Positions 123 to 63,467 of a DNA stretch of 64,000 nt are shown here, in pieces. A program made the position numbers and the translations under genes. The DNA is from Nitrospinaceae bacterium (GTDB taxonomy: Bacteria > Nitrospinota > Nitrospinia > Nitrospinales > Nitrospinaceae). Every line of letters starts with the position of its first letter. The first letter of the stretch is position 1. The DNA is taken from positions 1-64,000 of the forward strand of contig JANQEK010000036.1 in NCBI GenBank assembly GCA_028278405.1. Reading direction: 5' to 3'. The notes beneath the pieces are model-generated. The model was not told the origin of the DNA and ran no database searches. It saw only the letters and a program-made list of their open reading frames with translations.

Positions 123-833
123 TTATATGAGCCTTGCCCGCAGGAAATATCGTACATAAACCGCTCCAAGGATGACTGCTTGTGCAGCGAAAATGCTCAG
201 GCATACCATGGGCCACAACAAGAACATCAACATATTGAACAGGGAAAACTGGTGATCCATAATATTCGTTAGAAACAATTTAATCCTTGTAGTTTTTGAT
301 TTTGTTGAGTGATATGTTTCAGGAAAGGACATTGAGAACAACTGCCAGACAAAGAATCTCGATGTTCTGGATCCTATAAATACAAAACCCACAAGTAAAA
401 ATAAGTCAGCCTCATTGATAAAATCAAAATGCCTTAAATGCCTGTATGCGTAAATAAAAATGGAACCCAAGCTGAGAAACGTACTTAAAATATCTATTCC
501 TAAGTCAAGAAAGGCGCCAAACTCCGATGTTGTTTTACTGGCGCGAGCCAGTTGGCCATCAGCACAGTCGAAAAGGTATGAAGCTTGAGACAATAGATAG
601 ATGACCACTACCGACAGAAATATCCGGTCTGGCGGTAGAACAAGAGACGCGAAAAAAGCGAGAATAGCAAATATCCCTGAAACGAGCGAGAGCTGGCTAG
701 GTGTTACACCAAGCTTATAACTTACGAATGCGAAAATAATAGATATATTATTTATAGTTTTGCGATCCAGACATATATTAGATCGAAAATTGCGCTGCTC
801 CCAGAACGTAGAAAATGTCAATGACTTGTTCAT
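123..833 (-). CDS. CDP-alcohol phosphatidyltransferase family membrane protein
   Basis: This 236-residue integral membrane protein carries the complete CDP-alcohol phosphotransferase signature: D89, D92-G93, A96-R97, G106, D110 and D114 with canonical spacing. Several hydrophobic segments follow the motif. The family moves a phospho- or phosphono-alcohol from a CDP carrier to a lipid or polyol acceptor. It lies downstream of the PEP mutase/nucleotidyltransferase fusion on the same strand, after a 181-base gap. That suggests it uses the CDP-phosphonate made there, but a housekeeping phospholipid role is not excluded. Sampled 60-base lines have about 35-43% GC, against about 57% in a sampled line of the pepM gene, and it sits beside a tRNA 3' end, so recent acquisition is possible. 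Confidence 0.88.
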   Translation of the reverse strand: MNKSLTFSTFWEQRNFRSNICLDRKTINNISIIFAFVSYKLGVTPSQLSLVSGIFAILAFFASLVLPPDRIFLSVVVIYLLSQASYLFDCADGQLARASKTTSEFGAFLDLGIDILSTFLSLGSIFIYAYRHLRHFDFINEADLFLLVGFVFIGSRTSRFFVWQLFSMSFPETYHSTKSKTTRIKLFLTNIMDHQFSLFNMLMFLLWPMVCLSIFAAQAVILGAVYVRYFLRARLI

Positions 834-1014: not shown

Positions 1015-2772
1015 CTAAGAAACTTTCGTCGTGTGTTCCTGAGCGGTGAAAAGTTCGTTGGCCAGTTCAATGTCTTTGGGGAAATGGATCTCTAGCCAGC
1101 CTTTGTGGATTTCCAGGTAGTGGACGTTGAAGCCGCGGTCGATCATTTCCTGAATCAGGTCGGTCAGTCGGAACTGGGAGACGTCCTCCGCTTCCTGGAC
1201 TTTGCCTTTGAGATTTTTCAACACATCCTGATAGGTTTGTAGGAATTGCTCCGCTCCGGTCTTCGAGAATTTAGCGAGGCCGATGAACTCGTGAGTGGCG
1301 GACGCAGGATCAATCTTTTTCCCGATTTTGGCGACGGTGTTCTGGTGATCGAAATTGATACTCCGGCGGTTACGGTTCTGCCGGTTGCGGCTGATCACGT
1401 AATCGGTGGCTTTGCCCTCCACGGCCTCCAAATATTGAATGGAGTTGTCCAATACCAGGACAATGTCTTCCTTGGAAGCCAGTAATTGGGCGATCACATG
1501 ATTTTCGAGGAGGATGTCGGAGTACAACATCAGAAATCCGTTGTGCATTTTTTCCTGAGCTGTAAGCAGACTGTGCAACTCGGTGCCTTTTTTGTAATTT
1601 TTATTGTGCAGAAAAGAGATCCCTTCTCCCTTCATTTTGTCGCCTGCATAACCGGTCACGACGGTCACATCAGTCAGATGGTTCTGATTGAGGGCCTGGG
1701 CCTGTCGGGCCAGCAGGGTTCTGCCGGCGATATCGGCCATGGCCTTGGGAGTGTTTTTGAGGACGGATTCGATGTCGGGCGCTTCTCCGGCGGCAGGAAT
1801 GATAACCGGGATATTGGTGTTGGTTTCATCCTGCTGATCCTTTTCCTTAACATCCAGAAACCCAACGGCATCAAATATTTCGCGTACCGGGGCGCACAGG
1901 GGATCGGCTTCGAGAGAGCGTTGATTGGATAAAATGGATTTAGCGGTATCGCGCATCGCCTTGTATGCGGCCCGCAATGAATGATTGGCGTAAATAATAA
2001 TTTGGAAACCTGTGGCCTGCAATTCTTCTTCCTGGATATTGTTATAGGTCGTGGGCACACATACCAGCGGTTTGCTCATCTCCAGTTCTTTCAGGAGGTC
2101 CTGATATTTGCCGGCAAACTCCATGATTTCGTCCGGTTGTTTGGACTTGGAGTGGATCATGATACCGTCGACCCCCGCTTGCAGGTAGATTCGCGCTCGA
2201 GTGAGTGCGTCTTCCATTCCCGTTCCTGCGATGAGGCTTTCGATACGGGCGATAATCATAAAGTCATCAGTCGCCTGTACTTTTTTTCCACGCTTGATCT
2301 TCTGCGCGAACACATCCGGTTCCTGCAGCACCTGGCTGGTGCCGGCTTCCAGGCTGTTGCGTTTGGGAAATACCTTGTCTTCGATGATAACCGCCGAGAC
2401 ACCCGCCCGCTCCATTTTCGACACCATGTATTCGAAAGTGTTGGGGTCGCCGCCAGTATCACCGTCGACGATCATGGGTTTTTGAGTGACTGTCAGAATT
2501 TCCTGGATGGTGTGCAGACGCGAATCGAAGCTGATCACTTCAATATCCGGGTGCCCTTTGGAAGCCGAGTCGGTCAGACTGCTTTCCCAGAGAGCGTCGA
2601 ATTCACGGGTGACGGACTGGTCGCCGGATTTTCCTTCAACACAGGTGGTGTCGGCGACGATGCCGCTGAGTCCGTTGTGGGCTTCCATGACGCGGACGAG
2701 TTTGTCCTGGGCGAGCAGTGTTTTAAGTTTGCCGCGTCGTTCTTCCGGTAAATTTTGGTTGAGCAGGGTCAT
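1015..2772 (-). CDS. pepM: Phosphoenolpyruvate mutase fused to a nucleotidyltransferase (PepM-PntC-like)
   Basis: This is a 585-residue two-domain cytoplasmic enzyme. Residues about 15-300 form a PEP mutase/isocitrate lyase-type barrel with the diagnostic EDKVFPKRNS motif at 131-140, which separates true PEP mutases from lyases. Residues about 322-575 form a sugar-nucleotidyltransferase fold starting IPVIIPAAGE. PEP mutase makes phosphonopyruvate, the first step of nearly all phosphonate pathways. Fused cytidylyltransferases (PntC type) activate 2-aminoethylphosphonate as its CMP derivative. The start ATG overlaps the stop of the upstream 100-residue gene (ATGA), indicating translational coupling. 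Phosphonopyruvate decarboxylase and AEP transaminase are not in the window, so the final product is unknown. The PEP mutase call is firm; the nucleotide and phosphonate specificity of the second domain are inferred. Confidence 0.92.
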   Translation of the reverse strand: MTLLNQNLPEERRGKLKTLLAQDKLVRVMEAHNGLSGIVADTTCVEGKSGDQSVTREFDALWESSLTDSASKGHPDIEVISFDSRLHTIQEILTVTQKPMIVDGDTGGDPNTFEYMVSKMERAGVSAVIIEDKVFPKRNSLEAGTSQVLQEPDVFAQKIKRGKKVQATDDFMIIARIESLIAGTGMEDALTRARIYLQAGVDGIMIHSKSKQPDEIMEFAGKYQDLLKELEMSKPLVCVPTTYNNIQEEELQATGFQIIIYANHSLRAAYKAMRDTAKSILSNQRSLEADPLCAPVREIFDAVGFLDVKEKDQQDETNTNIPVIIPAAGEAPDIESVLKNTPKAMADIAGRTLLARQAQALNQNHLTDVTVVTGYAGDKMKGEGISFLHNKNYKKGTELHSLLTAQEKMHNGFLMLYSDILLENHVIAQLLASKEDIVLVLDNSIQYLEAVEGKATDYVISRNRQNRNRRSINFDHQNTVAKIGKKIDPASATHEFIGLAKFSKTGAEQFLQTYQDVLKNLKGKVQEAEDVSQFRLTDLIQEMIDRGFNVHYLEIHKGWLEIHFPKDIELANELFTAQEHTTKVS

Positions 2773-3099: not shown

Positions 3100-4470
3100 T
3101 TAATTGAAGACCCTCATTATGTCATTGTAAAAGGCAAAGATCATCAACGAGAGTAACATGAATAAACCGACCTGTGCCGCTCGCTCCCGATTGGATTCGC
3201 TGATGGGTTTGCCTTTGACAATCTCAATCAGGAAAAAAAGGATGTGACCCCCATCCAGAATTGGGATGGGAAGAAGATTCAAAAGTCCCAGGTTGATGCT
3301 CAGAAACGCTGTGAGTAACACAAAATAAATAAGGCCCTGTTCCGCCTGCTTGCCGTAAACCTGGTAAATCAGAATAGGTCCGCCAATATTTTTAGGAGAG
3401 ATAGACCCGGTTATGAGTTTTTTGATGCTGACGCTGATCAGGTAAATTCTCTCCCAGGTTTCTTTCATCCCGCGCAGAATAGCCCCCGGCAATGAATATT
3501 TCTCGGTAACCATAACCCCGGATATCCCAAATCCCATGTAGCCGCCACTCACTTCCTTTCCCTTCAGATCAATTGCTGTCTTTAGCTCGGGAGTCACTTT
3601 AAATATTTGTTCCTGCCCGTTTCTCATGACATGGAACGTCAACTCCTGTCCGGGTTTGTCTAAAGCTGCAGTTTTTAAGTCTGAAAAGCCCATCACCAAT
3701 GTGTCGTCGATAAATAAAATGTCATCTCCGACCCGCAGCCCGGCTTTATCAGCGGGAGAGCCTTTTTCTATAACGGCGATTCTGCGAGCCAGTCTTTCGA
3801 TGCCGATCAGTCCGATGGATTTTTTGTCGCCGAACAGATCGGGAGTTTCCTTGGCTTCGGGAGTAATAGGAAGCGTAAGAATCGTTTTTGAGTCGCGTTC
3901 AATCACAAACTCCATCTGTTTGCCGGGAGCGTTGTGAATGATGTCTTGCAACTCATGCCAGTAACGAATTTTTTCACCATCAATTTCAAGGATCCGGTCA
4001 CCGGTTTGGAGGCCCGCTTTTTGAGCCGGTGAGGGAGTGTGGACTTTGCCCACGTCGGTTCCGCTGGCAGGAATGCCTACCATATAGATGCCAATATAGA
4101 TGGCGATGGCAAACAGGAAGTTGAACAACGGGCCGCCGAACGCAATGGCCAACCGTTGATACACCGAAGCCGCGGAAAAAGAGCCCTGGGTGTCTGTCAA
4201 CTCTTCCGTGGGATCTTCCCCTTTCATTTTTACGTAACCGCCTAACGGAATTGCGGCGATCAGATATTCGGTACCCTTGGATTTGAACCCAATAACCTTG
4301 GGACCGAATCCAATGGAGAACTTTTCAACGATGACTCCGCATTTGCGGGCGATCAGGAAATGACCCAGCTCGTGGACGAAAATAAGAGCGGCCAAACCTA
4401 TCAGGAATGCCGTGGTTTTGAATCCGTAAGACAGGAAAGTGTCAAGAGATGATGCGGTAAACTCAAACAT
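3100..4470 (-). CDS. rseP: Site-2 zinc metalloprotease RseP
   Basis: This 456-residue inner-membrane protease is of the RseP/MraY-neighbour S2P family. The HELGH zinc motif is at residues 33-37 in the first membrane helix. Two PDZ domains occupy roughly 110-290. The second half of the active site, NLLPIPILDGGH, is near residue 400 and is followed by a last helix. Length matches the E. coli enzyme (450). It performs intramembrane cleavage of anti-sigma factors and remnant signal peptides. It is preceded by lolA with an 11-base gap and followed by the small unknown gene, inside a run of envelope genes. No anti-sigma factor gene is nearby, so its regulatory target is not visible here. Confidence 0.95.
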   Translation of the reverse strand: MFEFTASSLDTFLSYGFKTTAFLIGLAALIFVHELGHFLIARKCGVIVEKFSIGFGPKVIGFKSKGTEYLIAAIPLGGYVKMKGEDPTEELTDTQGSFSAASVYQRLAIAFGGPLFNFLFAIAIYIGIYMVGIPASGTDVGKVHTPSPAQKAGLQTGDRILEIDGEKIRYWHELQDIIHNAPGKQMEFVIERDSKTILTLPITPEAKETPDLFGDKKSIGLIGIERLARRIAVIEKGSPADKAGLRVGDDILFIDDTLVMGFSDLKTAALDKPGQELTFHVMRNGQEQIFKVTPELKTAIDLKGKEVSGGYMGFGISGVMVTEKYSLPGAILRGMKETWERIYLISVSIKKLITGSISPKNIGGPILIYQVYGKQAEQGLIYFVLLTAFLSINLGLLNLLPIPILDGGHILFFLIEIVKGKPISESNRERAAQVGLFMLLSLMIFAFYNDIMRVFN

Positions 4471-4481
4471 GATAAATCAAA

Positions 4482-5141
4482 CTACTCCATGGATGAAAGA
4501 TCAATCAGTTCCACCCCTTTAGGAACCTCGAGCATAAAAAGTTTCTTTTCAAGGCTGGGGTTGATTTGGATATTGCTGAAAATCATTTCTGTTTTGTTTC
4601 CTAAATTATCATACACCCGGGACCCGACGATCTGGAAATTTTTCTTGTCGGCGAGGAGTACCATTTTTGAAAGATTCTGCACCTTATCTCTGGGGATGAA
4701 TTCGACGATGTAAACCCCGGTTTCTTCAGTTACTTTCCCGATTGTGAACGATTCGGTCAGCTTGCCTCGTCCCGCCAGAAACAGAGCCGGAGTGTTTGAA
4801 GAGTAGATGCTTTGGGATTTCATTTTAGTGACCTGCTTTTCGTCTGGCAAATACAGCCAAAGGTTCTGGTCGTTGCTTACCAGAATCTGGCGGTCCGGGG
4901 CTTTGTAATCCCATTTCATTTTACCGGGTTTTTTGATGGAAACGGAACCTTCAGCTTTCTGCGACTGGCCTAAAATTTTCAGAAACGACTTTTGGATGAA
5001 TCGGGCCTGAAACGTATCGGTGGCGTCGTATTGCTTTTGGATGGAGTTTACAATCGCGACAGAATCCAGGGCGAACGTCGATCCGGGTAAGGACCACATC
5101 AGGAGCAGAATGAAAAAAGTATTGCGGATTTTAGGATTCAT
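4482..5141 (-). CDS. lolA: Outer-membrane lipoprotein carrier protein LolA
   Basis: This 219-residue periplasmic protein has an N-terminal signal peptide (hydrophobic residues 8-24, likely cut after TFA). It shows the LolA pattern: an early FQARFIQ strand, then PGKMKWDY, a WLYLPDEKQ strand and a paired C-terminal sheet. LolA ferries lipoproteins from the LolCDE transporter to the outer-membrane receptor LolB. The start ATG shares one base with the purN stop (TAATG), implying coupling. LolB was not seen in the window, which is normal outside the gamma- and betaproteobacteria. Confidence 0.9.
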   Translation of the reverse strand: MNPKIRNTFFILLLMWSLPGSTFALDSVAIVNSIQKQYDATDTFQARFIQKSFLKILGQSQKAEGSVSIKKPGKMKWDYKAPDRQILVSNDQNLWLYLPDEKQVTKMKSQSIYSSNTPALFLAGRGKLTESFTIGKVTEETGVYIVEFIPRDKVQNLSKMVLLADKKNFQIVGSRVYDNLGNKTEMIFSNIQINPSLEKKLFMLEVPKGVELIDLSSME

Positions 5142-5767
5142 TAAGATACGCTTTCCTTATAGGAGACTTTCCGGTTTTCAATGTGCAGGCGGTTTTCAAC
5201 AATCATTTGTATCGCTCGCGGATAAATGAGGTGCTCCTGAATCAAAATACGTTGGGCCAGGGATTCCGCATCGTCCGACTCGTGTACCGGCACGACTGCC
5301 TGCAGGATGATGGGACCGCCATCGACTTCCTCGTTGACAAAATGAACCGTACATCCTGAAAACTTGACTCCGTAATCGATGGCTTTTTGCTGAACATCCA
5401 GTCCCGGAAAGGCGGGCAGGAGCGAAGGATGGATATTGATGATTTTCCCTTTAAACTTTTGAATGAATTCCGGGCCGAGAATGCGCATATACCCCGCCAG
5501 GCAAACCAGATCGATTTGACGATCTTCGAGTTCTTTGGCCAGTGCCAGATCAAATTCTTTTTTGTCAGCGTATGATTTCGGGTTCAGTGTAACCGCCTCG
5601 ATATTTTTTTTTCGAGCCCGTTCCAAGGCTGGAGCTTCCTTTTTATTGCTGAGCACCACGGCGATGCGGGCGTTCAGTTCCCCGTTTTCTATGGCGTCCA
5701 TGATTGCCTGCAAATTGGTACCGCGTCCGGATACCAGTATTCCAATTTTAAAGTCGCCGGAGGTCAT
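5141..5767 (-). CDS. purN: Phosphoribosylglycinamide formyltransferase PurN
   Basis: The enzyme transfers a formyl group from 10-formyltetrahydrofolate to GAR in purine synthesis. The N-terminal phosphate-binding loop ILVSGRGTNLQAI is present. The catalytic region NIHPSLLPAFPG carries the family Asn and His, and the GCTVHFVNEEVDGGPII segment contributes the third catalytic residue region (Asp). An in-frame TTG at 5785 would add six residues. I prefer the ATG at 5767, giving 208 residues, because it places the first beta-strand as in other PurN proteins. The gene overlaps lolA by one base, an unusual purine-envelope neighbour pair, and lies 79 bases downstream of the LpxC fusion. Confidence 0.94.
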   Translation of the reverse strand: MTSGDFKIGILVSGRGTNLQAIMDAIENGELNARIAVVLSNKKEAPALERARKKNIEAVTLNPKSYADKKEFDLALAKELEDRQIDLVCLAGYMRILGPEFIQKFKGKIINIHPSLLPAFPGLDVQQKAIDYGVKFSGCTVHFVNEEVDGGPIILQAVVPVHESDDAESLAQRILIQEHLIYPRAIQMIVENRLHIENRKVSYKESVS

Positions 5768-5846
5768 GATTATTTTGGGTCTCAATCGCAGGTGCTGGTC
5801 GCATCAAGGAAACAGGGTGAAGAATAAAACTACAGGTGCAAGCTGA

Positions 5847-7889
5847 TCAGTGAACGGAAACCGCCTGGGCCAGGTCTTCCTTGATCGCTTTCAAGAGTCC
5901 GATGTTTTGAGTGTGCCCCGATTTATGGGCTTTGATATAGCCTCGGATCGGTTTCCCAAGCAGATAAAAGTCCCCTAGAATATCCAGGATTTTGTGGCGC
6001 GCGAATTCGTTCTCATACCGCAATGTGGTGTTGAGGACTTTTTCGTCTCCCAGCAGGATAAAATTATCAAGCTTTCCTCCTACTCCGAAACCCATTTTGT
6101 TCAGCATAGCCACGTCCTTTACAAACCCGAAGGTGCGTGCCGGCGCGATTTCTTCCTTGAAACTCTCCGCTCCCTGGAACTCAAAGGTGTGCTCCATGGT
6201 ACCGATGGGCGCCGGGTATTCCATGTGATAACTCACTTTAAAGCCGTCGTAAGGTTCAATCGAAATGTGTGCTCCGCCTTCTTCCTTCGCTCCGAAGGTG
6301 TACGTTTTATCAATAATCAACTCCTCGTAGATTTCATCTTGCTCCTCGAAATCTCCATCTTCGATCAATTGACAGAAATCCTTGGCGGAACCGTCCATGA
6401 CAGGGGCCTCATCGCCGATTTTGATCAAAAGGTTGTGAACCCGGTACATGTGAAGGGTGGCCATAATATGTTCGATCGTAGAAACGGACGCATAACCCTT
6501 GCGCAGGCTGGTGGCGTATTCTGTAGATTGTACATTTTCCACTTTGGCGGGAATGGTGCTTCCGCTGGAGATGTCACCGAAAATAATTCCACTTCCCGGA
6601 GGCAGGGGCTGCATGATGAGACCGGTTTTGATTCCGGAATGCAGTCCACGTCCGCACAACACCACACTGCGTTTCAAAGTACGTTGAAGCCGTTGATTTT
6701 TTTTCTTTTTCTTGGAAGTTTTCGGCTTCGTGCGGAGTGGTGGCTGGGTTTTTCGGATCAGGGCCGATACATCCTTGACGGTGATTTCTTCATCCGGATG
6801 GATAGTCCGGGCGATCTGATCCAGGACCGAACGCAGTTCCTTGAAATTTTCCGGCCAGTCATATTCGCACAGCACTCGCATGGTTTCTTCGTTGAAGTTT
6901 TTGCAAACCACTTTTCCTTTGTTCTCCAAATCTTCAAAATATTCTTCCACCAGGGTTGGGATCAACGCTCTATTGTCTCTTAAGGGCGGCACGTTGATAA
7001 TGTTTTTCTTTAAGATTTCATACAGATCACCGTTAAACTCCCCTTGCCCAACCAGCGTTTCCAGGTCTTTGGTGGAGGAGGCAAAAACTCTGTCTGGAAT
7101 AAACCCCTCGATTTTTCGGGAGGAAGATGAAGATTTCAAAGCGGATGCCAGTTTTGCCTGAACATCTTTGCTCATGGAATCGATATTTTTTAAATAGACC
7201 GCCTTTTTCCCGGCGCCGCCACGGGCGGATTTAGTCTTTTGACCTTTTTCATTCTGAGGAGAAAAAAGCTCAATTTCGATTTTCGGCATAGAACGGAGAC
7301 TGCAGTTAATTTTATGGAGAGAGAAATTAGACTTCTTACTCTTATGGTGAATGGCTTGCGCGATAAACTCCTTACCTGTTCCCACTTCTCCCTGAATCAG
7401 AATGGGGGCATCGGTTTTTGAAGCCTGAGTGACAGCTTTCTTGACTTCGACCATCATTTCAAAACAGTGAGGAAGTTCGTGCTGAGCGGTTTCCTGGCCG
7501 CCAACTCCGTTCATCCGACCTTTTCTTTGCTTGAGGGCTCTCTCGACGGACAGGACCAATTGATTCAGTGAAAACGGTTTCTCAATAAAATCATAAGCTC
7601 CCAGCTTGGTCGCTTTCACAGCCGTGTCGATGGTTCCGTGTCCGGACATGACCAACACTTCAATTTCTGGATGATAGGTTTTGATGGCCTGCAACACTTC
7701 AATACCGTCCATTCCCGGTATCCAGATATCCAATAGGACCAAATCCGGGGGTTCAGACTGAACCATTTCGAGGGCGTCCAGTCCGTCTTCAGCGGTGGCG
7801 ATCTCATATCCTTCGTCGTTTAATATTTCCTGAAGAGAGGAAACTATATTTTTTTCGTCATCTACAATGAGGACTCTTTCTTTAGCCAA
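5847..7889 (-). CDS. lpxC: Response regulator / degenerate AAA+ / LpxC fusion protein
   Basis: This is a single 680-residue frame with three modules. Residues 1-125 are a receiver domain with acidic DD at 10-11, phospho-acceptor D54, S82 and K104. Residues 137-380 resemble the AAA+ core of NtrC-type sigma-54 activators. Walker A is GEVGTGKE (167-174), but the Walker B acidic pair is replaced (YLKNID), the GAFTGA loop is missing and no Fis-type DNA-binding domain follows. After a lysine-rich linker (385-400), residues 403-680 are a complete UDP-3-O-acyl-N-acetylglucosamine deacetylase. E473-H474, T586, H632-K633, D636 and H659 correspond to the LpxC zinc ligands and catalytic residues. Start is TTG with a GGAGG five bases upstream. 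LpxC commits lipid A synthesis; direct phospho-control of it is an inference. Confidence 0.93.
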   Translation of the reverse strand: MAKERVLIVDDEKNIVSSLQEILNDEGYEIATAEDGLDALEMVQSEPPDLVLLDIWIPGMDGIEVLQAIKTYHPEIEVLVMSGHGTIDTAVKATKLGAYDFIEKPFSLNQLVLSVERALKQRKGRMNGVGGQETAQHELPHCFEMMVEVKKAVTQASKTDAPILIQGEVGTGKEFIAQAIHHKSKKSNFSLHKINCSLRSMPKIEIELFSPQNEKGQKTKSARGGAGKKAVYLKNIDSMSKDVQAKLASALKSSSSSRKIEGFIPDRVFASSTKDLETLVGQGEFNGDLYEILKKNIINVPPLRDNRALIPTLVEEYFEDLENKGKVVCKNFNEETMRVLCEYDWPENFKELRSVLDQIARTIHPDEEITVKDVSALIRKTQPPLRTKPKTSKKKKKNQRLQRTLKRSVVLCGRGLHSGIKTGLIMQPLPPGSGIIFGDISSGSTIPAKVENVQSTEYATSLRKGYASVSTIEHIMATLHMYRVHNLLIKIGDEAPVMDGSAKDFCQLIEDGDFEEQDEIYEELIIDKTYTFGAKEEGGAHISIEPYDGFKVSYHMEYPAPIGTMEHTFEFQGAESFKEEIAPARTFGFVKDVAMLNKMGFGVGGKLDNFILLGDEKVLNTTLRYENEFARHKILDILGDFYLLGKPIRGYIKAHKSGHTQNIGLLKAIKEDLAQAVSVH

Positions 7890-7934
7890 GGAAACCTCCG
7901 TGATTGGTATCGAAAAACAAAACTTCCATATCTG

Positions 7935-51512: not shown

Positions 51513-52823
51513 CTACAAGTTATATCCGCGTTCATCGTGCTGGGACAGATCCAATCCTTCGGTTTCAGCATCGTCGGTGACTCGCAGGCCTACGACTGCG
51601 TCCACCCCTTTCAGGATCACAAAGCTGACAATTCCGGAATAGAGCACGGTTGCAGTGACACCGATGAGCTGAACCCATACCTGACCGCCGATACTGGTGA
51701 TTTCATCACCGAAGCCAACTCCGCCCAGTCCCTGAGCGCAAAATATCCCGGTCAGAATGGCGCCAATGATTCCGCCCACGGCGTGCACGCCGAAAACATC
51801 CAGGGAGTCGTCATATCCCATAAGACGTTTGAGTTTTGTGGAAGCGATGAAACAACCCACACCCGCAGCAGCACCGATGGCGAGGGCTCCCATCGGACCA
51901 ACGGCACCCGAGGCGGGAGTGATGGCTACCAGGCCCGCGACCGCTCCCGAAGCGATTCCCAGAACACTGGGTTTCCCATGGTCGATCCATTCGCTGAACA
52001 TCCAGCCTAATGCGGCGGCGGCGGTCGCGATCTGGGTGACGGCCATGGCCATTCCGGCAGTACCGTCTGCCGCCAGTTCACTGCCCGCGTTGAAACCGAA
52101 CCAGCCGACCCACAACATGGACGCTCCCATCAGGGTGTATCCCAGATTGTGCGGTGGCATGTGTTTTTCAGGGTATCCCTTACGTTTGCCCAGAACGATG
52201 GCGGCGACTAGTCCAGCAATTCCGGCATTGATGTGCACTACGGTTCCTCCTGCAAAATCCAGAATGCCTTTCGATCCGAGCCATCCTCCTTCACCCCAGA
52301 CCCAGTGACATACCGGGGCGTAAACAACGGTAAACCACAGCCCCATAAAGAGTAGGATTGCTGAAAATTTCATGCGCTCCGCAAACGCACCGACAATCAG
52401 GGCGGGCGTGATGATCGCAAACGTCATTTGAAACGTCATAAAAACGGTTTCAGGAATAGTGCCGCTGAGCGTGTCGACTCCAACACCGCTCAGAAAGGCT
52501 TTGGATAATCCGCCCCAAAATGTGCCGGCGCCACCAAAGGCCATGCTGTAACCGTAAATGACCCACAAAACTGTCATGAGGGAAGTGATCGCAAAGCACT
52601 GCATCAGTACCGACAGGACGTTTTTGCTTCGTACCATACCGGCATAAAACAGGGACAAACCGGGGATGGTCATGAAAAGTACCAAAGCGGTCGCCGTTAA
52701 CATCCACGCGGTATCGCCCGAATTAAGAACTGGCGCGTCTTCTGCCAGAGCCTGACCGGGAAAGCAAACCGCTAATAAAATTGTAAAAACGATCCATGCC
52801 TGCGACCGAAGTCTCGTCTGCAT
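51513..52823 (-). CDS. amt: Ammonium transporter Amt
   Basis: The 436 residues carry a cleavable signal-like segment (10-28) and eleven membrane helices. Conserved Amt motifs are present: GDTAWMLTATALVLFMTIPGLSLFYAGMVRSKN, the D in the CHWVWGEGGWLGSKGILDFAGGTVVHINAGIAGLV stretch, and the twin-histidine region FGVHAVGGIIGAILTG. The protein moves ammonium across the inner membrane and is normally gated by GlnK. It lies 58 bases after glnK on the same strand, with the porin 53 bases further. The C-terminal tail is short and acidic. Confidence 0.95.
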   Translation of the reverse strand: MQTRLRSQAWIVFTILLAVCFPGQALAEDAPVLNSGDTAWMLTATALVLFMTIPGLSLFYAGMVRSKNVLSVLMQCFAITSLMTVLWVIYGYSMAFGGAGTFWGGLSKAFLSGVGVDTLSGTIPETVFMTFQMTFAIITPALIVGAFAERMKFSAILLFMGLWFTVVYAPVCHWVWGEGGWLGSKGILDFAGGTVVHINAGIAGLVAAIVLGKRKGYPEKHMPPHNLGYTLMGASMLWVGWFGFNAGSELAADGTAGMAMAVTQIATAAAALGWMFSEWIDHGKPSVLGIASGAVAGLVAITPASGAVGPMGALAIGAAAGVGCFIASTKLKRLMGYDDSLDVFGVHAVGGIIGAILTGIFCAQGLGGVGFGDEITSIGGQVWVQLIGVTATVLYSGIVSFVILKGVDAVVGLRVTDDAETEGLDLSQHDERGYNL

Positions 52824-52881
52824 TTAGTTTTTCTCCTTCCAAAAGTTAAGTGAGGACCACTGAAATTTTTTCATACTTCAG

Positions 52882-53220
<339 letters not shown>

Positions 53221-53771: not shown

Positions 53772-54293
53772 ATGGCTGAGGAACAAACAATTGTAGAAAA
53801 TGATCCAGCGGCGCCCGCTCCCCGAAATTCTCTAATGAATCTCCTTTTGGTGCTGGTGCTGGTTTTGGTCGCCGGAGTCGGGGGCTACTTTGCCCAGGAA
53901 CTGATCACCGGTAACTCTCAGTCTGTGGCTCCATCTCCCTCCATGCAGACCCAGCCGGCAGCGTCAGCCCAGTCGCCGGTAGCTCCTGCGGTGGGAGTGA
54001 TGATTCCTCTCGAGCCTTTTATGGTGAACCTGGCAAGGACCAAGGGAAGCCGAATATTAAAAGTGACCGTCACTTTGGAGTTGAACAATCCGGCGGTTCA
54101 ACCGGAAGTTGAAGACAACCGCCAGAAGATTATGGACTCCATCCTGGTATTGCTGAGCAGTAAAACATTCGAAGATGTCTATTCAATCCAGGGAAAATTC
54201 AAGCTGAAAGATGAAATCACGACGCGGGTCAACCGGTTTCTGGCGATGGGGCATGTCAAGGAAGTGTATTTCTCGGAATTTTTAATTCAATAA
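53772..54293 (+). CDS. fliL: Flagellar basal body-associated protein FliL
   Basis: This 173-residue single-pass membrane protein has a short cytoplasmic N-terminus, one helix (about 21-42) and a proline- and serine-rich linker. The FliL domain follows (PLEPFMVNLARTKGSRILKVTVTLELNN, then KTFEDVYSIQGKFKLKDEITTRVN). The protein associates with the stator and basal body and influences torque or stator recruitment. It heads a typical flagellar operon with fliM 44 bases downstream. Confidence 0.93.
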   Translation: MAEEQTIVENDPAAPAPRNSLMNLLLVLVLVLVAGVGGYFAQELITGNSQSVAPSPSMQTQPAASAQSPVAPAVGVMIPLEPFMVNLARTKGSRILKVTVTLELNNPAVQPEVEDNRQKIMDSILVLLSSKTFEDVYSIQGKFKLKDEITTRVNRFLAMGHVKEVYFSEFLIQ

Positions 54294-54337
54294 ACCTTTG
54301 ATGTTTTTTCAATAGGGGTTTGGTAAGGTCAGTTGAT

Positions 54338-55309
54338 ATGGAGCAGGTTTTATCTCAAGGAGAAGTGGATGCCCTGTTAAGAGGCGTCAGCGGGGGTCAG
54401 ATTGAAACGGAGACTGATGTCCCGGAAGAAGTCAGCGGAGTGGTTCCCTATGACCTGACCAGTCAGGAAAAAATCGTTCGCGGGCGCCTCCCGACTCTGG
54501 ATATTGTCAATCAGATGTTCTCGAGGTTGTTCAGGAACTCCTTTTCCAGTTTGATGCGCAAATCCGCCGATATCAGCACGGTGTCTACGGACTCTCTGAA
54601 ATTCGGTGAATTCCTGCGGTCTCTGTCCGTACCCACCAGTTTGCATGTGTTTCGCATGGAGCCGTTACGCGGATTTGGCCTGATGGTGGTGGAAAGCCGT
54701 CTGGTGTTTTCATTTGTTGATAATTTTTTTGGTGGAACGGGATCTTCGGATATCAATATTCTGGGCCGCGATTTCAGCGCGATTGAAGTCCGGATGACCA
54801 AAAAAGTGGTTCAGACGGCTTTGGAAGATTGGGAACGCGCCTGGAAATCGGTTCATCCGGTGGCGTGCACTTATGTTCGTTCTGAAGTCAACCCACAGTT
54901 TGCAGCTATTGTGCCGCCTACAGATGTGGTGTTGGTTGTTGTGTTTGATATTGAAATGGAGCATTCCTCGGGAACCGCGACCATTTGCATCCCTTATTCC
55001 ATGATCGAACCCATTCTCAACAAGCTCAAGGCAAACTTCCAAAGCGAGCAGATGGAGGTGGATCAGGTCTGGATCAACCGTCTGCAGAGAGAATTGATGC
55101 AGACGGAAGTGGAGATGGTGGCGGAATTGGGTCAAACTCAAATGACACCACGGGAATTGCTTGGTCTTCACGAAGGGGATGTGATGATGCTGAACAAAGA
55201 TGTTTCCGAACCGCTTTACATCAAAGTCGAGGAGACCGCTAAGCTAAGAGGCTACTCAGGCGTCTCGCGGGGAATGAAAGCAGTTCAAATTACAGAAGTT
55301 CTTCAATAG
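54338..55309 (+). CDS. fliM: Flagellar motor switch protein FliM
   Basis: This protein of about 323 residues starts with the CheY-P binding motif MEQVLSQGEVDALLRG. It has the middle CheC-like domain (SSLMRKSADISTVSTDSLKFGEFL through VEVRMTKKVVQTALEDWERAW) and the C-terminal SpoA domain (ELGQTQMTPRELLGLHEGDVMML). ATG 54338 is chosen over a TTG at 54320. It forms the middle of the C-ring and reverses motor direction after binding CheY-P. Confidence 0.94.
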   Translation: MEQVLSQGEVDALLRGVSGGQIETETDVPEEVSGVVPYDLTSQEKIVRGRLPTLDIVNQMFSRLFRNSFSSLMRKSADISTVSTDSLKFGEFLRSLSVPTSLHVFRMEPLRGFGLMVVESRLVFSFVDNFFGGTGSSDINILGRDFSAIEVRMTKKVVQTALEDWERAWKSVHPVACTYVRSEVNPQFAAIVPPTDVVLVVVFDIEMEHSSGTATICIPYSMIEPILNKLKANFQSEQMEVDQVWINRLQRELMQTEVEMVAELGQTQMTPRELLGLHEGDVMMLNKDVSEPLYIKVEETAKLRGYSGVSRGMKAVQITEVLQ

Positions 55310-55320
55310 GGTGAATTATT

Positions 55321-55689
55321 ATGGCTGAACATCAGGACGATTTGGAAGCGCTGGATGATATCGACAATCTGGATCAATTCAGGGATGATCAGGATGCGTC
55401 CGAAACCGGGGCATTGTCTCGTGAGGAAACCCAGAACCTGGATTTGATTCTGGATATACCATTGACCGTTACGGTGGAATTAGGCCGGTCCAAAATGCTG
55501 ATCAACGATTTGCTCCAGTTGGGGCAGGGCTCAGTAATAGAATTGACAAAGTTGGTGGGTGAGCCGCTGGAGGTTTTGGTCAACAATAAACTGGTGGCCC
55601 GGGGTGAAGTGGTTGTCGTCAATGAAAAATTCGGAGTCCGCCTGACCGATATCGTATCTCCCATGGAGCGGGTCCAGTCTTTGACCTGA
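55321..55689 (+). CDS. fliN: Flagellar motor switch protein FliN
   Basis: The 122 residues contain an acidic N-terminal region, then the SpoA domain: [62 protein letters not shown] in order, with the final [15 protein letters not shown]. The protein forms the bottom of the C-ring and helps recruit the export ATPase complex. It starts 12 bases after fliM. Confidence 0.94.
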
Positions 55690-55880
55690 AGACCCGCTTC
55701 TCTGTTTTTCCTTCAGATTTGACGAGCCTGTTCCCTTGGCTCGGTTTCCCACACACATCCTAGAATGTCTTAGGCGTCCTTTATCAGACCGTTTCGGTAC
55801 GGCCTTTGCATTTATCCATTTGGATCATCGGGTGTCGATGTTTTTGACGCCATTCGTTTGCCTAATGGAGAGGTCGGATT

Positions 55881-57206
55881 ATGAAAAAGGTTGGCCCAGC
55901 GATGGCAGCAACCCTAGGTTTTATCTTGCTTTGGGCGCATCTTGCGCATTCTTCCCAGCCGCTTTCGAGCTACAACCTGCTGCAGAATGTTGCGGTAGAC
56001 CGTAAGGATGGGGAGTTGTTGATTCAACTGAAATTCAAAAATCCCCCGGTTCATTTTCAAGGCCCGAAATTCTTCAAAAAATCCATTCAAATAGATTTTC
56101 CATTGGCCTACGTGAATCCGCCCAAGCGTTATTTTGACACGGGAGATGACCGGATTCGGCAGGTCTACGTTTCACAATTTGATCGCAAGCGGCTTCGCTT
56201 GCGTTTGATGCTGGCTTCCGGCGCGTCGGTTCCCAAGGATGAAACGGTTGTGGAGCAGGTGGGACGCGTGCTTCAAATCCGAATCCAATCAAGCAGCCCC
56301 AAGCCTGCTCCCGTCAAAAATAAAATGGTTGATCCGCTGGAAAGCCTGTTGGCGCGAGCGTCGCGCATTCAACAATCGAAAGTGGTTCAAACCAAAACAA
56401 CTTCAGGACAATTAGCAAAGACAAGTTCTGCAGAGAAAACGCTAAAAGCTTCCTCGCCGGTGGAGAAAGTGCGATCGGTATCTCCAGAAAAGAGCGCTGA
56501 CCCTTCGGGTCCACTGCTGTCGCAGGTGCTTGGAAGGGGTCTGCAGAGCGAACCGGCAGCATCTGCAGCATCGGAACAGGCTTCTTTAAAGACACGCAAA
56601 GCTGGAATATTGGAGCTTGGGAATGATTTGTCATCCGAAGATTCCGGTCTGTTCTCGGCGAGCCTTAAGATGGCTTCAACATTGGGGCTGGTTTTGGGTT
56701 TGATGTTTATCGTGTTTCATTTGTTTAAAAAATTTGGTTTGAAGAACAGTGTCTTTGGAGGTGAAGGAAAACCCATTAAAGTGTTGTCCACCGGATTTCT
56801 GGCTCCCAGGAAAAGCATCGCTCTGGTGGAGGTGGCAGGTGACATCCTGGTTGTCGGGATTTCCAATGATCAGATTTCATTACTCGGGAACATTCAGGAT
56901 CCGGAAAAAATTGAACAGATCAAAGGCGCTCTGCATAAAAAAGACCACGATCAGAAACCCTCCGCTGCAGCTCCCGAATCCAAAAGTGAAGCGGTAGAAG
57001 CTCAGGCCGTGAAAGAGGAAATGCCGCAGGCCAGCAAGCAGGGAGTCGATGTATATAACAAACGATTGATCAAGTCCGGCTCTACCAATCCGTTTGGAGA
57101 GTATGTTAAGCAGTTTACGGATTCTTCGGAAACCGAGCAGCAGTCGATGAAGGATGTTGCTTCCAGGGTTAAAAAGAAGCTGGAGGAGGTTCCGATTTTT
57201 AAATGA
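55881..57206 (+). CDS. fliO: FliO, unusually long, with N-terminal AMIN-like domain
   Basis: This 441-residue protein replaces the short FliO normally found here. Signal-like residues 6-24 are followed by an AMIN-like beta domain (about 30-136; NVAVDRKDGELLIQLKFKNPPV and RKRLRLRLML). A disordered S/K/A-rich region (140-255) and one membrane helix (262-282) come next. The FliO core follows (GEGKPIKVLSTGFLAPRKSIALVEVAGDILVVGIS), then a charged C-terminal tail. FliO assists assembly of the FliP-FliQ-FliR export gate. The extra periplasmic AMIN-like domain would bind peptidoglycan or another envelope part, by family analogy. It overlaps the fliP start by four bases. Confidence 0.82.
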   Translation: MKKVGPAMAATLGFILLWAHLAHSSQPLSSYNLLQNVAVDRKDGELLIQLKFKNPPVHFQGPKFFKKSIQIDFPLAYVNPPKRYFDTGDDRIRQVYVSQFDRKRLRLRLMLASGASVPKDETVVEQVGRVLQIRIQSSSPKPAPVKNKMVDPLESLLARASRIQQSKVVQTKTTSGQLAKTSSAEKTLKASSPVEKVRSVSPEKSADPSGPLLSQVLGRGLQSEPAASAASEQASLKTRKAGILELGNDLSSEDSGLFSASLKMASTLGLVLGLMFIVFHLFKKFGLKNSVFGGEGKPIKVLSTGFLAPRKSIALVEVAGDILVVGISNDQISLLGNIQDPEKIEQIKGALHKKDHDQKPSAAAPESKSEAVEAQAVKEEMPQASKQGVDVYNKRLIKSGSTNPFGEYVKQFTDSSETEQQSMKDVASRVKKKLEEVPIFK

Positions 57207-57964
57207 AACGATCGGCGTATGTCTTAATTTTAATATCCGTATTATGGGCGGCCGTTAACGTTGTGGTTCCCCATGAAGCCTCCGCCATTCCTGTTCCCAC
57301 AGTTCAATTTGGAATGGAGGATGCCGAGGAACCCAGTACCTTGTCGACTGCGCTTCAAGTCATGTTTCTGCTGACGGTGCTGACTCTTGCCCCGTCCATC
57401 CTGATCCTGATGACATCGTTTTCCCGCTTTGTCATTGTCCTGTCTTTTCTCAGGCAAGCCATGGGAACCCAGCAGACGCCGCCGACACAGGTGTTGATCG
57501 GTTTGGCCCTGTTTCTGACTTTTTTTGTCATGAGTCCGGTGCTATCGGAAATTAACGACAAGGCCCTGCAACCTTACTTGAACGAGGAAATCACTCAGAG
57601 CAAGGCTCTGGAACTTGCACAAACTCCCATAAAGACGTTCATGTTGAAACAAACCCGCGAAAAGGACTTGGCGTTATTCGTCAATATGGATCAAGGAGAA
57701 AGGCCGGAGACGCTGGATGATGTCAAAATACAATCTGTGGTGCCTGCCTTCGTGATCAGCGAGTTGAAAACAGCGTTTCAAATCGGATTTCTGATTTATA
57801 TCCCGTTTTTAATACTCGATATGGTTGTGGCGAGCATTCTTCTTTCCATGGGGATGATGATGCTGCCTCCCGTGCTGATTTCCCTGCCATTCAAACTGAT
57901 GCTGTTTGTAATGGTCGACGGTTGGCACTTGACCGTTGGATCTCTCGTTAAAAGTTTTACATAG
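57203..57964 (+). CDS. fliP: Flagellar export gate protein FliP
   Basis: The 253 residues include a cleavable N-terminal signal peptide and four membrane helices with the FliP motif LTLAPSILILMTSFSRFVIVLSFLRQAMGTQQTPP, then NDKALQPYLNEEI and DMVVASILLSMGMMMLPP. It forms the core of the flagellar type III export gate with FliQ and FliR. It starts inside the fliO stop (ATGA) and is followed by fliQ after nine bases. Confidence 0.95.
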   Translation: MKRSAYVLILISVLWAAVNVVVPHEASAIPVPTVQFGMEDAEEPSTLSTALQVMFLLTVLTLAPSILILMTSFSRFVIVLSFLRQAMGTQQTPPTQVLIGLALFLTFFVMSPVLSEINDKALQPYLNEEITQSKALELAQTPIKTFMLKQTREKDLALFVNMDQGERPETLDDVKIQSVVPAFVISELKTAFQIGFLIYIPFLILDMVVASILLSMGMMMLPPVLISLPFKLMLFVMVDGWHLTVGSLVKSFT

Positions 57965-57973
57965 GAAAGCGTG

Positions 57974-58243
57974 ATGACCGAACAATTCATCGTGGATTTT
58001 GCCATGAACACCATACGAACCACGCTTCTGGTTTCCGCCCCCATGCTGGGATTCGGGCTGATCACCGGGCTGGTGATTTCCATTTTTCAGGCGGTCACCT
58101 CCATTCAGGAGCTGACGCTCACATTTATTCCTAAAATACTGGCGGTGTTTCTGGCTTTGTTCCTGTTTTTCCCCTGGATCATGCGGATCATGCTGAGTTT
58201 TACAGAACAGGTTCTTATAAGCTTTCCCAGCTACATCGGGTGA
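57974..58243 (+). CDS. fliQ: Flagellar export gate protein FliQ
   Basis: The 89 residues have two membrane helices and the FliQ pattern: FAMNTIRTTLLVSAPMLGFGLITGLVISIFQAVTSIQELTLTFIPK. ATG 57974 follows a GTG at 57971, which is an alternative start. The stop overlaps the ATG of fliR. It surrounds the FliP ring in the export gate. Confidence 0.93.
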   Translation: MTEQFIVDFAMNTIRTTLLVSAPMLGFGLITGLVISIFQAVTSIQELTLTFIPKILAVFLALFLFFPWIMRIMLSFTEQVLISFPSYIG

Positions 58244-59025
58244 TGGAACTCTTCAACCTATCGTATGCAGACTTCGAACGCTTCATTTTTGTTTTGGTCC
58301 GGGTGGGGGCTTTTATTGTATTTGTTCCGATTCTGGGAAGTCAGCAGTTTCCCGCCCGGATTAAAGTAGGCTTTATCCTCCTGCTCAGTTTGAGTGTCTT
58401 TCCGTTGGTTCGTCAATTACCCATGGCAGAACCCACGGGATTACTCGACTTTACCATTTATTTATTTTCTGAAGCGACAGTGGGTCTAGCGCTCGCTTAT
58501 GCCACGCGCCTGATTTTTGCCGCAGTTCAGATTGCAGGAACGGTGGTGGATTTTCAAATGGGCTTCGGCGTGGTCAACGTGATCGATCCGCAGACACAGT
58601 CGCAGGTTTCCATCACCGCCCAATTTCAGAATATTTTCGCGATCCTGTTGTACCTAGCCTTGAACGCGCACCATTTGACCATCTACGCCCTGGTCGAGAG
58701 CTTTCAACTGATCAATCCACAACAATTCGGGTTTTCCGCCGGAACCATGTCGCTGATTTTGAAATTGTTCGCGACCACGTTTGTGGTGGCCGTTAAAATC
58801 GCCGCTCCCATTATGGCAATTTTGTTTTTTATCAGTGTGGGTCTAGGGCTGGTGGCCCGAACGGTTCCACAGATGAACGTTTTTATTGTCGGGTTTCCAC
58901 TGCAAATTGGTGTGGGGCTTTTGATGGTTGGGCTTTCCATGAGTTTCTTCGGCATGATGATGACACAGCACATCTCGCAACTGCCCAACTGGCTGATGAG
59001 CCTGATGCATACGATGAACGGATGA
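58243..59025 (+). CDS. fliR: Flagellar export gate protein FliR
   Basis: This protein of about 260 residues has six or seven membrane helices, with the typical start FVLVRVGAFIVFVPILGSQQFPARIKVG and the middle GTVVDFQMGFGVVNVIDPQTQSQVS. The end, FPLQIGVGLLMVGLSMSFFG, is characteristic. It completes the FliP-FliQ-FliR gate. The ATG at 58243 overlaps the fliQ stop; a GTG at 58240 is an alternative. Confidence 0.94.
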   Translation: MELFNLSYADFERFIFVLVRVGAFIVFVPILGSQQFPARIKVGFILLLSLSVFPLVRQLPMAEPTGLLDFTIYLFSEATVGLALAYATRLIFAAVQIAGTVVDFQMGFGVVNVIDPQTQSQVSITAQFQNIFAILLYLALNAHHLTIYALVESFQLINPQQFGFSAGTMSLILKLFATTFVVAVKIAAPIMAILFFISVGLGLVARTVPQMNVFIVGFPLQIGVGLLMVGLSMSFFGMMMTQHISQLPNWLMSLMHTMNG

Positions 59026-59056
59026 GTTTCGATATTTGGATTAAAGGATTCAAGTA

Positions 59057-60133
59057 ATGGCAGAAGACGTCAATATTGATCAGAAAACAGAAGAACCGAC
59101 AGCGAAACGAATCCAGGATGCTGAAGAACGGGGTAACTTTGCCCATAGCCGGGAATTGACCTCTGCTTTTGTTCTGCTGGCCTCAATTTTGGCGTTTGCC
59201 ATGGCGGGAGCATTCAGTACCCGGCATATGATGGAGGCTTGGCACAATCTGTTTACCCGAATCCACATCATTCAACCCAATCTGGTGGATATGAAGGAAT
59301 TGCTGGCGTGGGTCATGGACCATTCTTTTGTTGTTCTGAGCCCCATTCTGTTTGCCATCATGCTGGGGGGAGTGACCGCTAACCTGGTGCAAACCGGTGG
59401 CGTCCGGTTTTCCCTGCATCCTTTGCTGCCGCGATTTCACAAAATGAATCCCTGGAACGGATTCAAGCGGATTTTCAGTCGGATTGCTTTGATGGAATTG
59501 TTCAAGTCGATCTTTAAGGTAACTCTTATTTCTCTGATCGCTTATTTCACGATCCAAGGGCGCTTCGATGAAGTTCCCCCCATGATGGGGAAGAGTGTCG
59601 GACAGATTTTGATTTTCATGGGAGAGGTGGCGCTCGAAATCATGATCAAAGTTCTGGTGGCTATGATTTTTCTAGCCTTCCTGGATTACATCTTTCAGAA
59701 GTTCACCTATCTTAAAAATCTGCGTATGACCAAGCAGGAAGTCAAGGATGAACGGAAGGATACAGAAGGGAATCCGCAGATCAAACAACGGGTGCGCAAT
59801 GTTCAAATGGAGATGATGAAACGCCGCATGATGTCCGCCGTTCCGGAAGCGGATGTGGTGATCACCAATCCGACACATATTTCGATAGCGATCCAATACG
59901 ATCAAGAGAACTCTGATGCCCCGGTCGTCGTGGCCAAGGGGAAGGGGATCATTGCTGAAAAAATACGCGAGCTCGCCAAGGAGCATGACATCCCTGTGGT
60001 GGAGGATAAACCCCTGGCACGGCTGCTTTTCAAGACAGTGGAAATCGGGCAGATGATCCCGGCTCACCTCTACAAAGCGGTGGCAGAAATCCTGGCTTAC
60101 GTTTATCGGTTGAAAGGCAAGACCTTGGTATAA
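59057..60133 (+). CDS. flhB: Flagellar export switch protein FlhB
   Basis: The 358 residues include the cytoplasmic start KTEEPTAKRIQDAEERGNFAHSRELTSA, four membrane helices and the autocleavage motif NPTH (ITNPTHISIAI). The cytosolic domain ends with a typical AKEHDIPVVEDKPLARLLFK. It switches export specificity from rod/hook to filament proteins. It stands 31 bases after fliR and 162 bases before flhA. Confidence 0.95.
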   Translation: MAEDVNIDQKTEEPTAKRIQDAEERGNFAHSRELTSAFVLLASILAFAMAGAFSTRHMMEAWHNLFTRIHIIQPNLVDMKELLAWVMDHSFVVLSPILFAIMLGGVTANLVQTGGVRFSLHPLLPRFHKMNPWNGFKRIFSRIALMELFKSIFKVTLISLIAYFTIQGRFDEVPPMMGKSVGQILIFMGEVALEIMIKVLVAMIFLAFLDYIFQKFTYLKNLRMTKQEVKDERKDTEGNPQIKQRVRNVQMEMMKRRMMSAVPEADVVITNPTHISIAIQYDQENSDAPVVVAKGKGIIAEKIRELAKEHDIPVVEDKPLARLLFKTVEIGQMIPAHLYKAVAEILAYVYRLKGKTLV

Positions 60134-60295
60134 AGATTGCACTTACTACCGATTGGAGTGCCAAATGTTTGAAATATTGGCGTTTGTAATCGTTCCGGAG
60201 CTTTCGTTATTTGCTGAACACGTTTAAATATAATAACTTAGTGATATGCGCCTGCGTCCCGGGTGCGTCAATTTTTTGGGTGGAGAACAGCTAAC

Positions 60296-62380: not shown

Positions 62381-63467
62381 AAAGGTAATTGCCAACAGTT
62401 ACGGAGAAGCCCTGAGCCGGGTGAAAAGTGAGCTGGGAGAAAACGCGATGGTTCTTTCGACCCGATCCATCAAGTTCAACAAAGACCAGGGTGCGAGTGA
62501 GTGTTCATCCCTTGTGGAGATTACGGCTGCATTGGATAACGACCCGCATCAGGAAACCGTTGCCGTTGCCGAAGAAACCTCGAATGAAAAAAGGTGGATG
62601 TCCGTTGATAAAGGCGGAGAGATACGGGAACTGCGCTCCATGATTGCATCTTTACTGACCCAGACGGACAAGGCTAAATCGATGGGTCTGAATGAAACCC
62701 TGCTGCCGGTTTATGAAAAGCTGATCGGCCGGGGGGTAGACGACCGGGTGGCCGCCCGGATGTTTGAAACGATTCACGAGCGGGGACAAAGGGAGGAGGG
62801 GAATCCTTTCATCGGTGAGAATCATCTGGCCGAAGTGATGAAAGGAGCGGTGAAATGTGATGGGCCTATCCGGCTGGAATCGGCTGGGCCCAAGGTCGTG
62901 GCATTGGTGGGTCCCACCGGTGCCGGCAAAACGACGACCATTGCCAAGCTGGCGGCACGGTTTGCGCTTCAGCAGAAAAAAAAGGTGGCCCTAATTTCTC
63001 TGGACACCTATCGCATGGGTGCTTGGGAACAGTTGGAATCGTATGGCGAGTTGATGCAGGTCCCGGTATTCCTGGCAGCCGACCGCAATGAGTTTTCACG
63101 GATCATACAGGAACATCAGGATAAGGATGTGATTTTGGTCGATACTATGGGCAAGTCGCATCGTGACCTGGATTACTGCAAACGATTGAAACAGGTGTTG
63201 GAAGCTGCACCTCAGGTTGAAATCCATCTGGTGCAAAGCGCTACCGCTCAGGAATCGGTTGTGTCCGAATGTTTCAAGCAGTTTGCCCCTCTGGGGATTG
63301 ATCGTGTGTTATTCACCAAACTGGATGAAGCGGTGGATTTCGGTTTGCTGTTCAACTGTTCAGTCCGCTATCAGATTCCATTTTCGTATTTTACGACCGG
63401 GCAAAGTGTGCCCGAAGACATTGAAGTAGCTGCGCAGGATAAGGTTATTCGTTTGATTTTTAACTGA
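62370..63467 (+). CDS. flhF: SRP-type GTPase FlhF
   Basis: This 365-residue protein has an N-terminal basic region (MRIKKVIANSYGEALSRVKSELGENAMVLSTRSIK) and the SRP-family G domain. G1 is GPTGAGKTTTIAKLAARFA, then SLDTYRMGAWEQLESYGELM, VDTMGKSHRD and TKLDEAVDFGLLFN. FlhF places flagella at the cell pole and works with FlhG. It overlaps the flhA end and lies 89 bases before flhG. Confidence 0.95.
   Translation: MRIKKVIANSYGEALSRVKSELGENAMVLSTRSIKFNKDQGASECSSLVEITAALDNDPHQETVAVAEETSNEKRWMSVDKGGEIRELRSMIASLLTQTDKAKSMGLNETLLPVYEKLIGRGVDDRVAARMFETIHERGQREEGNPFIGENHLAEVMKGAVKCDGPIRLESAGPKVVALVGPTGAGKTTTIAKLAARFALQQKKKVALISLDTYRMGAWEQLESYGELMQVPVFLAADRNEFSRIIQEHQDKDVILVDTMGKSHRDLDYCKRLKQVLEAAPQVEIHLVQSATAQESVVSECFKQFAPLGIDRVLFTKLDEAVDFGLLFNCSVRYQIPFSYFTTGQSVPEDIEVAAQDKVIRLIFN

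Follow-up and report, generated by a model that had tools for sequence, protein, structure and literature searches.

The fusion gene and its neighbours

The window, a stretch of 64,000 nucleotides from a Nitrospinaceae bacterium, carries on its reverse strand a single open frame in which a receiver domain, a degenerate AAA+ core with its lid and an LpxC deacetylase domain follow one another. The parts of this frame and the conserved genes downstream of it are:

5847..7889 (-), ntrX::lpxC fusion gene, single open frame of 680 aa with a TTG start
7895..7899 (-), GGAGG ribosome-binding site, 5 bases before the TTG
7530..7877 (-), receiver domain, residues 5-120 (PF00072 3.8e-34)
7728-7730 (-), codon of the phospho-acceptor D54, within the receiver
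6990..7457 (-), degenerate sigma54-activator AAA+ core, residues 145-300 (PF00158 7.6e-21)
6735..6989 (-), AAA+ lid, residues 301-385 (PF25601 3.3e-11)
6690..6734 (-), lysine-rich linker, residues 386-400 (from the alignment)
5874..6686 (-), LpxC deacetylase domain, residues 402-672 (PF03331 3.1e-80; TIGR00325)
5141..5785 (-), formyltransferase-domain gene (purN-like), downstream conserved neighbour (PF00551 2.2e-58)
4482..5141 (-), lolA, downstream conserved neighbour (PF03548 1.1e-34)
3100..4470 (-), rseP-like M50 site-2 protease gene, downstream conserved neighbour (PF02163 3.4e-73, PDZ domains)

Within the 680 residues, the Pfam matches span positions 6-115 (Response_reg), 145-295 (Sigma54_activat), 307-385 (AAA_lid_14) and 402-670 (LpxC). 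The LpxC domain scores 230.9 bits with TIGR00325 (curated cut-off 187.25) and 270 with the Pfam LpxC model (cut-off 27). Of the zinc and catalytic residues that an initial annotation had assigned to it, E473/H474, H632/D636 and H659 were located, equivalent to E78/H79, H238/D242 and H265 of the E. coli enzyme. As judged from its sequence, the domain is likely a complete deacetylase acting on UDP-3-O-acyl-GlcNAc. A genome-wide search identified the fusion as the sole LpxC of the organism. LpxK was found in the same genome, so lipid A synthesis is expected and the LpxC pathway is likely used.

The regulatory part also agrees largely with the initial annotation. The receiver, described there as intact with D54 and K104, contains the acidic pair D10 and D11, the phospho-aspartate D54, S82 and K104, and the TTG start is indeed preceded by GGAGG. 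In the AAA+ core the Walker A lysine is retained, Walker B has KN where DE would be expected, and GAFTGA is absent, as had been noted. Among NCBIfam regulator models, NtrX (NF051870) fits the fusion best, with scores of 264.9 bits for the window protein and 401.7 bits for the relative L088, both under the curated cut-off of 600. A Pfam search revealed no HTH in the window protein, where the linker takes the place that is held in relatives by a Fis-type HTH stretch according to the alignment. The proposed lack of a DNA-binding domain therefore applies to the window protein and does not extend to the many relatives that keep an HTH-like stretch between lid and LpxC.

Elsewhere in the window, a long frame at 1015-2772 (-) reads as PEP mutase plus nucleotidyltransferase, and a CDP-alcohol phosphatidyltransferase-like gene lies near it at 123-833 (-); from their sequences, this pair may make a phosphonolipid head group. 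At the other end, positions 53772-63467 (+) hold a flagellar run, assigned by eye, from FliL/FliM/FliN-like genes through FlhB, FlhA and FlhF, adjoined by an ammonium transporter gene and a PII gene at 51513-53220.

Occurrence and ancestry of the fusion

The nearest named relatives of the window are Nitrospinaceae MAGs, which places it in Nitrospinota. Every LpxC frame was extracted from a sample of 77 Nitrospinota genomes, 65 of which contain one LpxC each. Among these 65 loci, 63 are visibly fused (61 with the receiver visible, two reaching the AAA+ domain before the contig ends), and the two others are cut by contig ends too early to be classified. Separate genes with a frameshift at the linker here had been named as a finding that would speak against the fusion, and no unfused LpxC occurs among the 65 loci. 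The recurrence of the same reading frame shows that the fusion is not an assembly artefact. Receiver, AAA+ and LpxC are thus joined in one real, uninterrupted frame, as first claimed.

A further reading is that LpxC is produced apart, by an internal start, frameshifting or cleavage, so that the long frame misleads. The linker of the window protein is variable and A-rich, as that reading would have it. However, an in-frame start is not conserved at the LpxC boundary, in line with the earlier remark that none lies near this domain. The A-rich run lacks conservation even inside the genus, which leaves both an internal start and slippage unsupported, and the fusion persists across many families and phyla. 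On these grounds internal start, A-run slippage and assembly error were ruled out, and a separately produced LpxC is scarcely credible.

The initial annotation had also called for a search for LpxC homologues with the N-terminal extension. These were found throughout the classifiable Nitrospinota and in at least four other phyla. In a domain-wide sample, all LpxCs at least 46% identical to that of the window lie in long frames; on reading, nine genomes proved to have the order REC-AAA(-HTH)-LpxC and four the order REC-LpxC. Judged by frame length, LpxC is fused in 4/4 genomes of the phylum of G262 (731-755 aa) and in all 20 LpxC-positive genomes of the phylum of G138 (538-962 aa). In the phylum of G170, 4/4 genomes have LpxC frames of 432-492 aa, and the one that was read (G170) is REC-LpxC. 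The fusion therefore occurs in at least five phyla, Nitrospinota included, and is not peculiar to the window genome.

A REC-LpxC protein was observed in G158 (L098, 5181-6473), from a phylum with mostly standalone-sized LpxC frames. LpxC was detected in 78 of 79 other sampled genomes of that phylum, and the protein of G158 is the only match there above 44% identity. Since the other LpxCs of its phylum typically occupy frames of about 300 aa, the G158 lineage seems to have gained the fusion by lateral transfer.

The ancestry of the fusion was studied with two trees, both obtained by quick searches. The LpxC tree comprised 35 fused and 25 unfused proteins, and a branch with an SH-aLRT value of 99 has all fused LpxCs on one side. 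In a receiver tree that compares fused receivers with 25 other receivers of the window genome, the fused receivers group together (SH-aLRT 93). Both trees are consistent with one ancient fusion, and the overall pattern would fit vertical inheritance with some transfer. The deep REC-LpxC forms may have arisen by loss of AAA+ or by a separate fusion.

A search that covered few subscription journals found no paper describing a receiver-LpxC fusion, and automatic domain databases may list the architecture. The searched passages of a 2025 review of LpxC regulation make no mention of such a fusion.

Unequal conservation of the domains

Residue conservation was counted over 78 fused proteins, with denominators that vary by site. 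D11, D54 and S82 are present in 74/74 receivers and K104 in 73/74. The LpxC residues E78/H79/H238/D242/D246/H265 (E. coli numbering) are present in 77/77 proteins. The sole fused receiver with a K104 to R change is L095 from G170, a genome that also gave no NtrY match at 1e-50. In the AAA+ domain, the Walker A lysine is found in 68/68 AAA-bearing fused proteins, the Walker B glutamate in only 1/71 and the Walker B aspartate in 21/71, and GAFTGA in none of the AAA-bearing fused proteins. The absence of GAFTGA rules out a sigma54 activator. What ATP hydrolysis and contact with sigma54 require has been lost from the AAA+ domain, which has probably ceased to be a sigma54 motor; its remaining role would at most be to bind nucleotide and aid oligomerisation.

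Inside the genus of the window, the dN/dS values are 0.033 (receiver), 0.034 (LpxC), 0.112 (AAA+), 0.128 (lid) and 0.50 (linker), so that AAA+ evolves 3-4 times faster than receiver or LpxC within the genus. Also, AAA+ is missing in the Nitrospinota families f7 and f5, in genus g9 and in four deep lineages, all of which retain the receiver. In f5 the HTH-like part is kept without AAA+. HTH is absent in the genus of the window, in f7 and in REC-LpxC-only proteins, and the HTH_8 matches in L085 and L097 are weak and below the cut-off. Since the receiver is kept in every lineage while AAA+ and HTH are lost, receiver plus LpxC appears to be the constant unit, with the middle part wearing away.

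This pattern bears on what the receiver is for. One ancient fusion event would suffice for a neutral frozen accident or a scaffold, in which the receiver is kept for folding or solubility of LpxC. But a scaffold would have no need of a phospho-site, and D54, D11 and S82 are invariant. Receiver dN/dS equals that of an essential enzyme, in contrast to AAA+ and linker, which drift or vanish. This makes a mere scaffold improbable. The way in which receiver and LpxC are conserved points to a functional phospho-site with a link to the enzyme, and away from a passive tag.

Alternatively, the NtrX half might regulate transcription in the sigma70 manner, for instance by repressing its own operon; LpxC would then be ungated and tied to it only to keep the amounts of enzyme and regulator equal. 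The Fis-type HTH-like stretch persists in many lineages, which suggests a DNA-binding role in those relatives. GAFTGA-less bEBPs have been reported at sigma70 promoters, and Caulobacter NtrX itself lacks GAFTGA (PMC10274813). Moreover, NtrYX represses lpxC transcription in Rhodobacter (PMC7240162) and in Caulobacter (PMC12444477); an NtrYX deletion raises lpxC transcription 8.8-fold in R. sphaeroides, where lpxC lacks an NtrX site (PMC7240162). Nevertheless, the HTH-less proteins of the window genus and f7 and those consisting of REC-LpxC only still have an invariant receiver constrained like LpxC, and we consider an ungated transcription regulator unlikely.

NtrY and the proposed control of LpxC

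An NtrY-type kinase gene lies directly upstream of the fusion, on the same strand, in families f9, f7 and f5 and, outside the phylum, in most members that bear AAA+. The encoded kinase (740 aa) comprises NtrY_N, HAMP, PAS, HisKA and HATPase domains, and a DUF4390 gene often precedes it, giving the order DUF4390-ntrY-[ntrX::lpxC]. The upstream kinase gene is frameshifted in G106. NtrY was detected in 64 of the 77 Nitrospinota genomes. In the Nitrospinales, DUF4390-ntrY is conserved but stands apart from the fusion, with no regulator gene adjoining in the loci examined. A search for a partner histidine kinase elsewhere in the genome had been advised for the window organism, and its genome (G000) does contain an orphan ntrY, on the same contig at C16:96432-98735 but unlinked to the fusion. 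Since ntrY is unlinked in the order to which the window belongs, its pairing with the fusion rests on the sister families.

Two ntrY copies were observed in this genome, the one on C16 (L113) and one at C22:33288-34868 (L114). They are near-identical and both lie at contig ends, and an IstB-like (IS21) frame takes the expected place of DUF4390 beside the C16 copy. Either a recent duplication that involved an insertion element or a chimeric assembly may account for the twin copies.

Adjacent and orphan NtrY copies share the same H-box helix, which is unlike that of the other G000 kinases read; the fused receivers show similar conservation in loop 1 and helix 1. Outside Nitrospinota, an orphan NtrY is found in three of the four REC-LpxC-only genomes. 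At 1e-50, no NtrY match was obtained in G022 (REC-LpxC, 91% complete) or G170 (92% complete); these absences count against the kinase pairing, and G170 is also the genome with the altered K104.

Known systems resemble the fusion in several ways. NtrY-NtrX of alphaproteobacteria and others shares the NtrY_N/HAMP/PAS kinase, the DUF4390 neighbour and the order receiver-AAA+-HTH, and Caulobacter NtrX shares the GAFTGA-less AAA+ (PMC10274813). A functional tie of NtrYX to LpxC and the envelope is likewise known (PMC7240162; PMC12444477, which reports lowered lpxC transcription in Caulobacter). However, known NtrX acts on lpxC via transcription, in R. sphaeroides indirectly, whereas LpxC is covalently attached in the fusion, and HTH and Walker B are gone in the window protein. 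A comparable link exists in Desulfovibrio, where lpxC is the single mapped target of the NtrC-type regulator DVU2934, and in Syntrophobacter, where lpxC lies directly upstream of that regulator operon (PMC3333781); unlike in the fusion, regulator and enzyme are separate proteins there and control is by promoter binding. LpxC of other bacteria (TIGR00325/PF03331) has the same complete catalytic domain as in the window, but is standalone, about 300 aa long, or fused to FabZ (PRK13188), in either case without a receiver.

We consider it fairly probable, from the sequence comparisons, that an NtrY-NtrX::LpxC system exists in which receiver phosphorylation directly sets LpxC output. The membrane kinase NtrY would phosphorylate D54 of the fused receiver, and the LpxC domain would respond to the altered receiver or to an altered dimerisation of receiver and AAA+. 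Deacetylase activity or stability of LpxC would thereby be set, and an envelope or redox signal could tune the committed step of lipid A synthesis without acting through transcription. For the window organism, we infer that NtrY is the cognate kinase, that D54 is phosphorylated and that this affects LpxC. As NtrYX represses lpxC in alphaproteobacteria, we lean by analogy to phosphorylation lowering LpxC output. Predicted structures, derived from alignments of 13 and 12 sequences with mean pLDDT values of 57.8 and 42.9 and with LpxC unmodelled, were of too low a quality to reveal contacts between receiver and LpxC.

Enzymes also serve as output domains of other response regulators, CheB among them. 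As in the fusion, a receiver there lies N-terminal to an enzyme and may gate its activity, but the output of the fusion is an essential lipid A enzyme present as the sole copy in the cell.

The initial annotation had suggested an LpxC gated by phosphorylation or by nucleotide. The phosphorylation option appears strengthened, because the receiver is as constrained as the enzyme and is the only regulatory part to persist in all lineages, and because NtrY is a plausible kinase for it. The nucleotide option appears weaker, because AAA+ evolves 3-4 times faster and is lost in several lineages, yet all AAA+ domains that remain have their Walker A lysine. The NtrX-like character of the regulator, the spread of the fusion over several phyla and the adjacent kinase gene in relatives had not been recognised in that annotation.

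A receiver might also set the level of LpxC, with phosphorylation exposing the protein to a protease (FtsH, Lon) or hiding it, as a fused counterpart of E. coli turnover. E. coli LpxC is controlled by FtsH-LapB-YejM proteolysis, a role of Lon has been put forward for some alphaproteobacteria, and in Pseudomonas MurA binding sets LpxC (PMC12444477). The strong receiver constraint fits this alternative equally well, and activity control and stability control of LpxC are indistinguishable from these data; control by protease access nevertheless receives only a small share of our confidence.

If phosphorylation does set LpxC output, a covalent regulator-enzyme fusion would be a testable third way of setting LpxC, a question that is largely open outside Enterobacteriaceae. 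As in a Rosetta stone, the genetic NtrYX-lpxC tie of alphaproteobacteria may have its physical counterpart here. With AAA+ and HTH lost repeatedly, a transcription factor seems to be turning into a post-translational switch, and we see an even chance that it was worn down to a receiver-enzyme switch and that the system was kept over several phyla. The branch that bears the fusion includes the main marine nitrite oxidisers.
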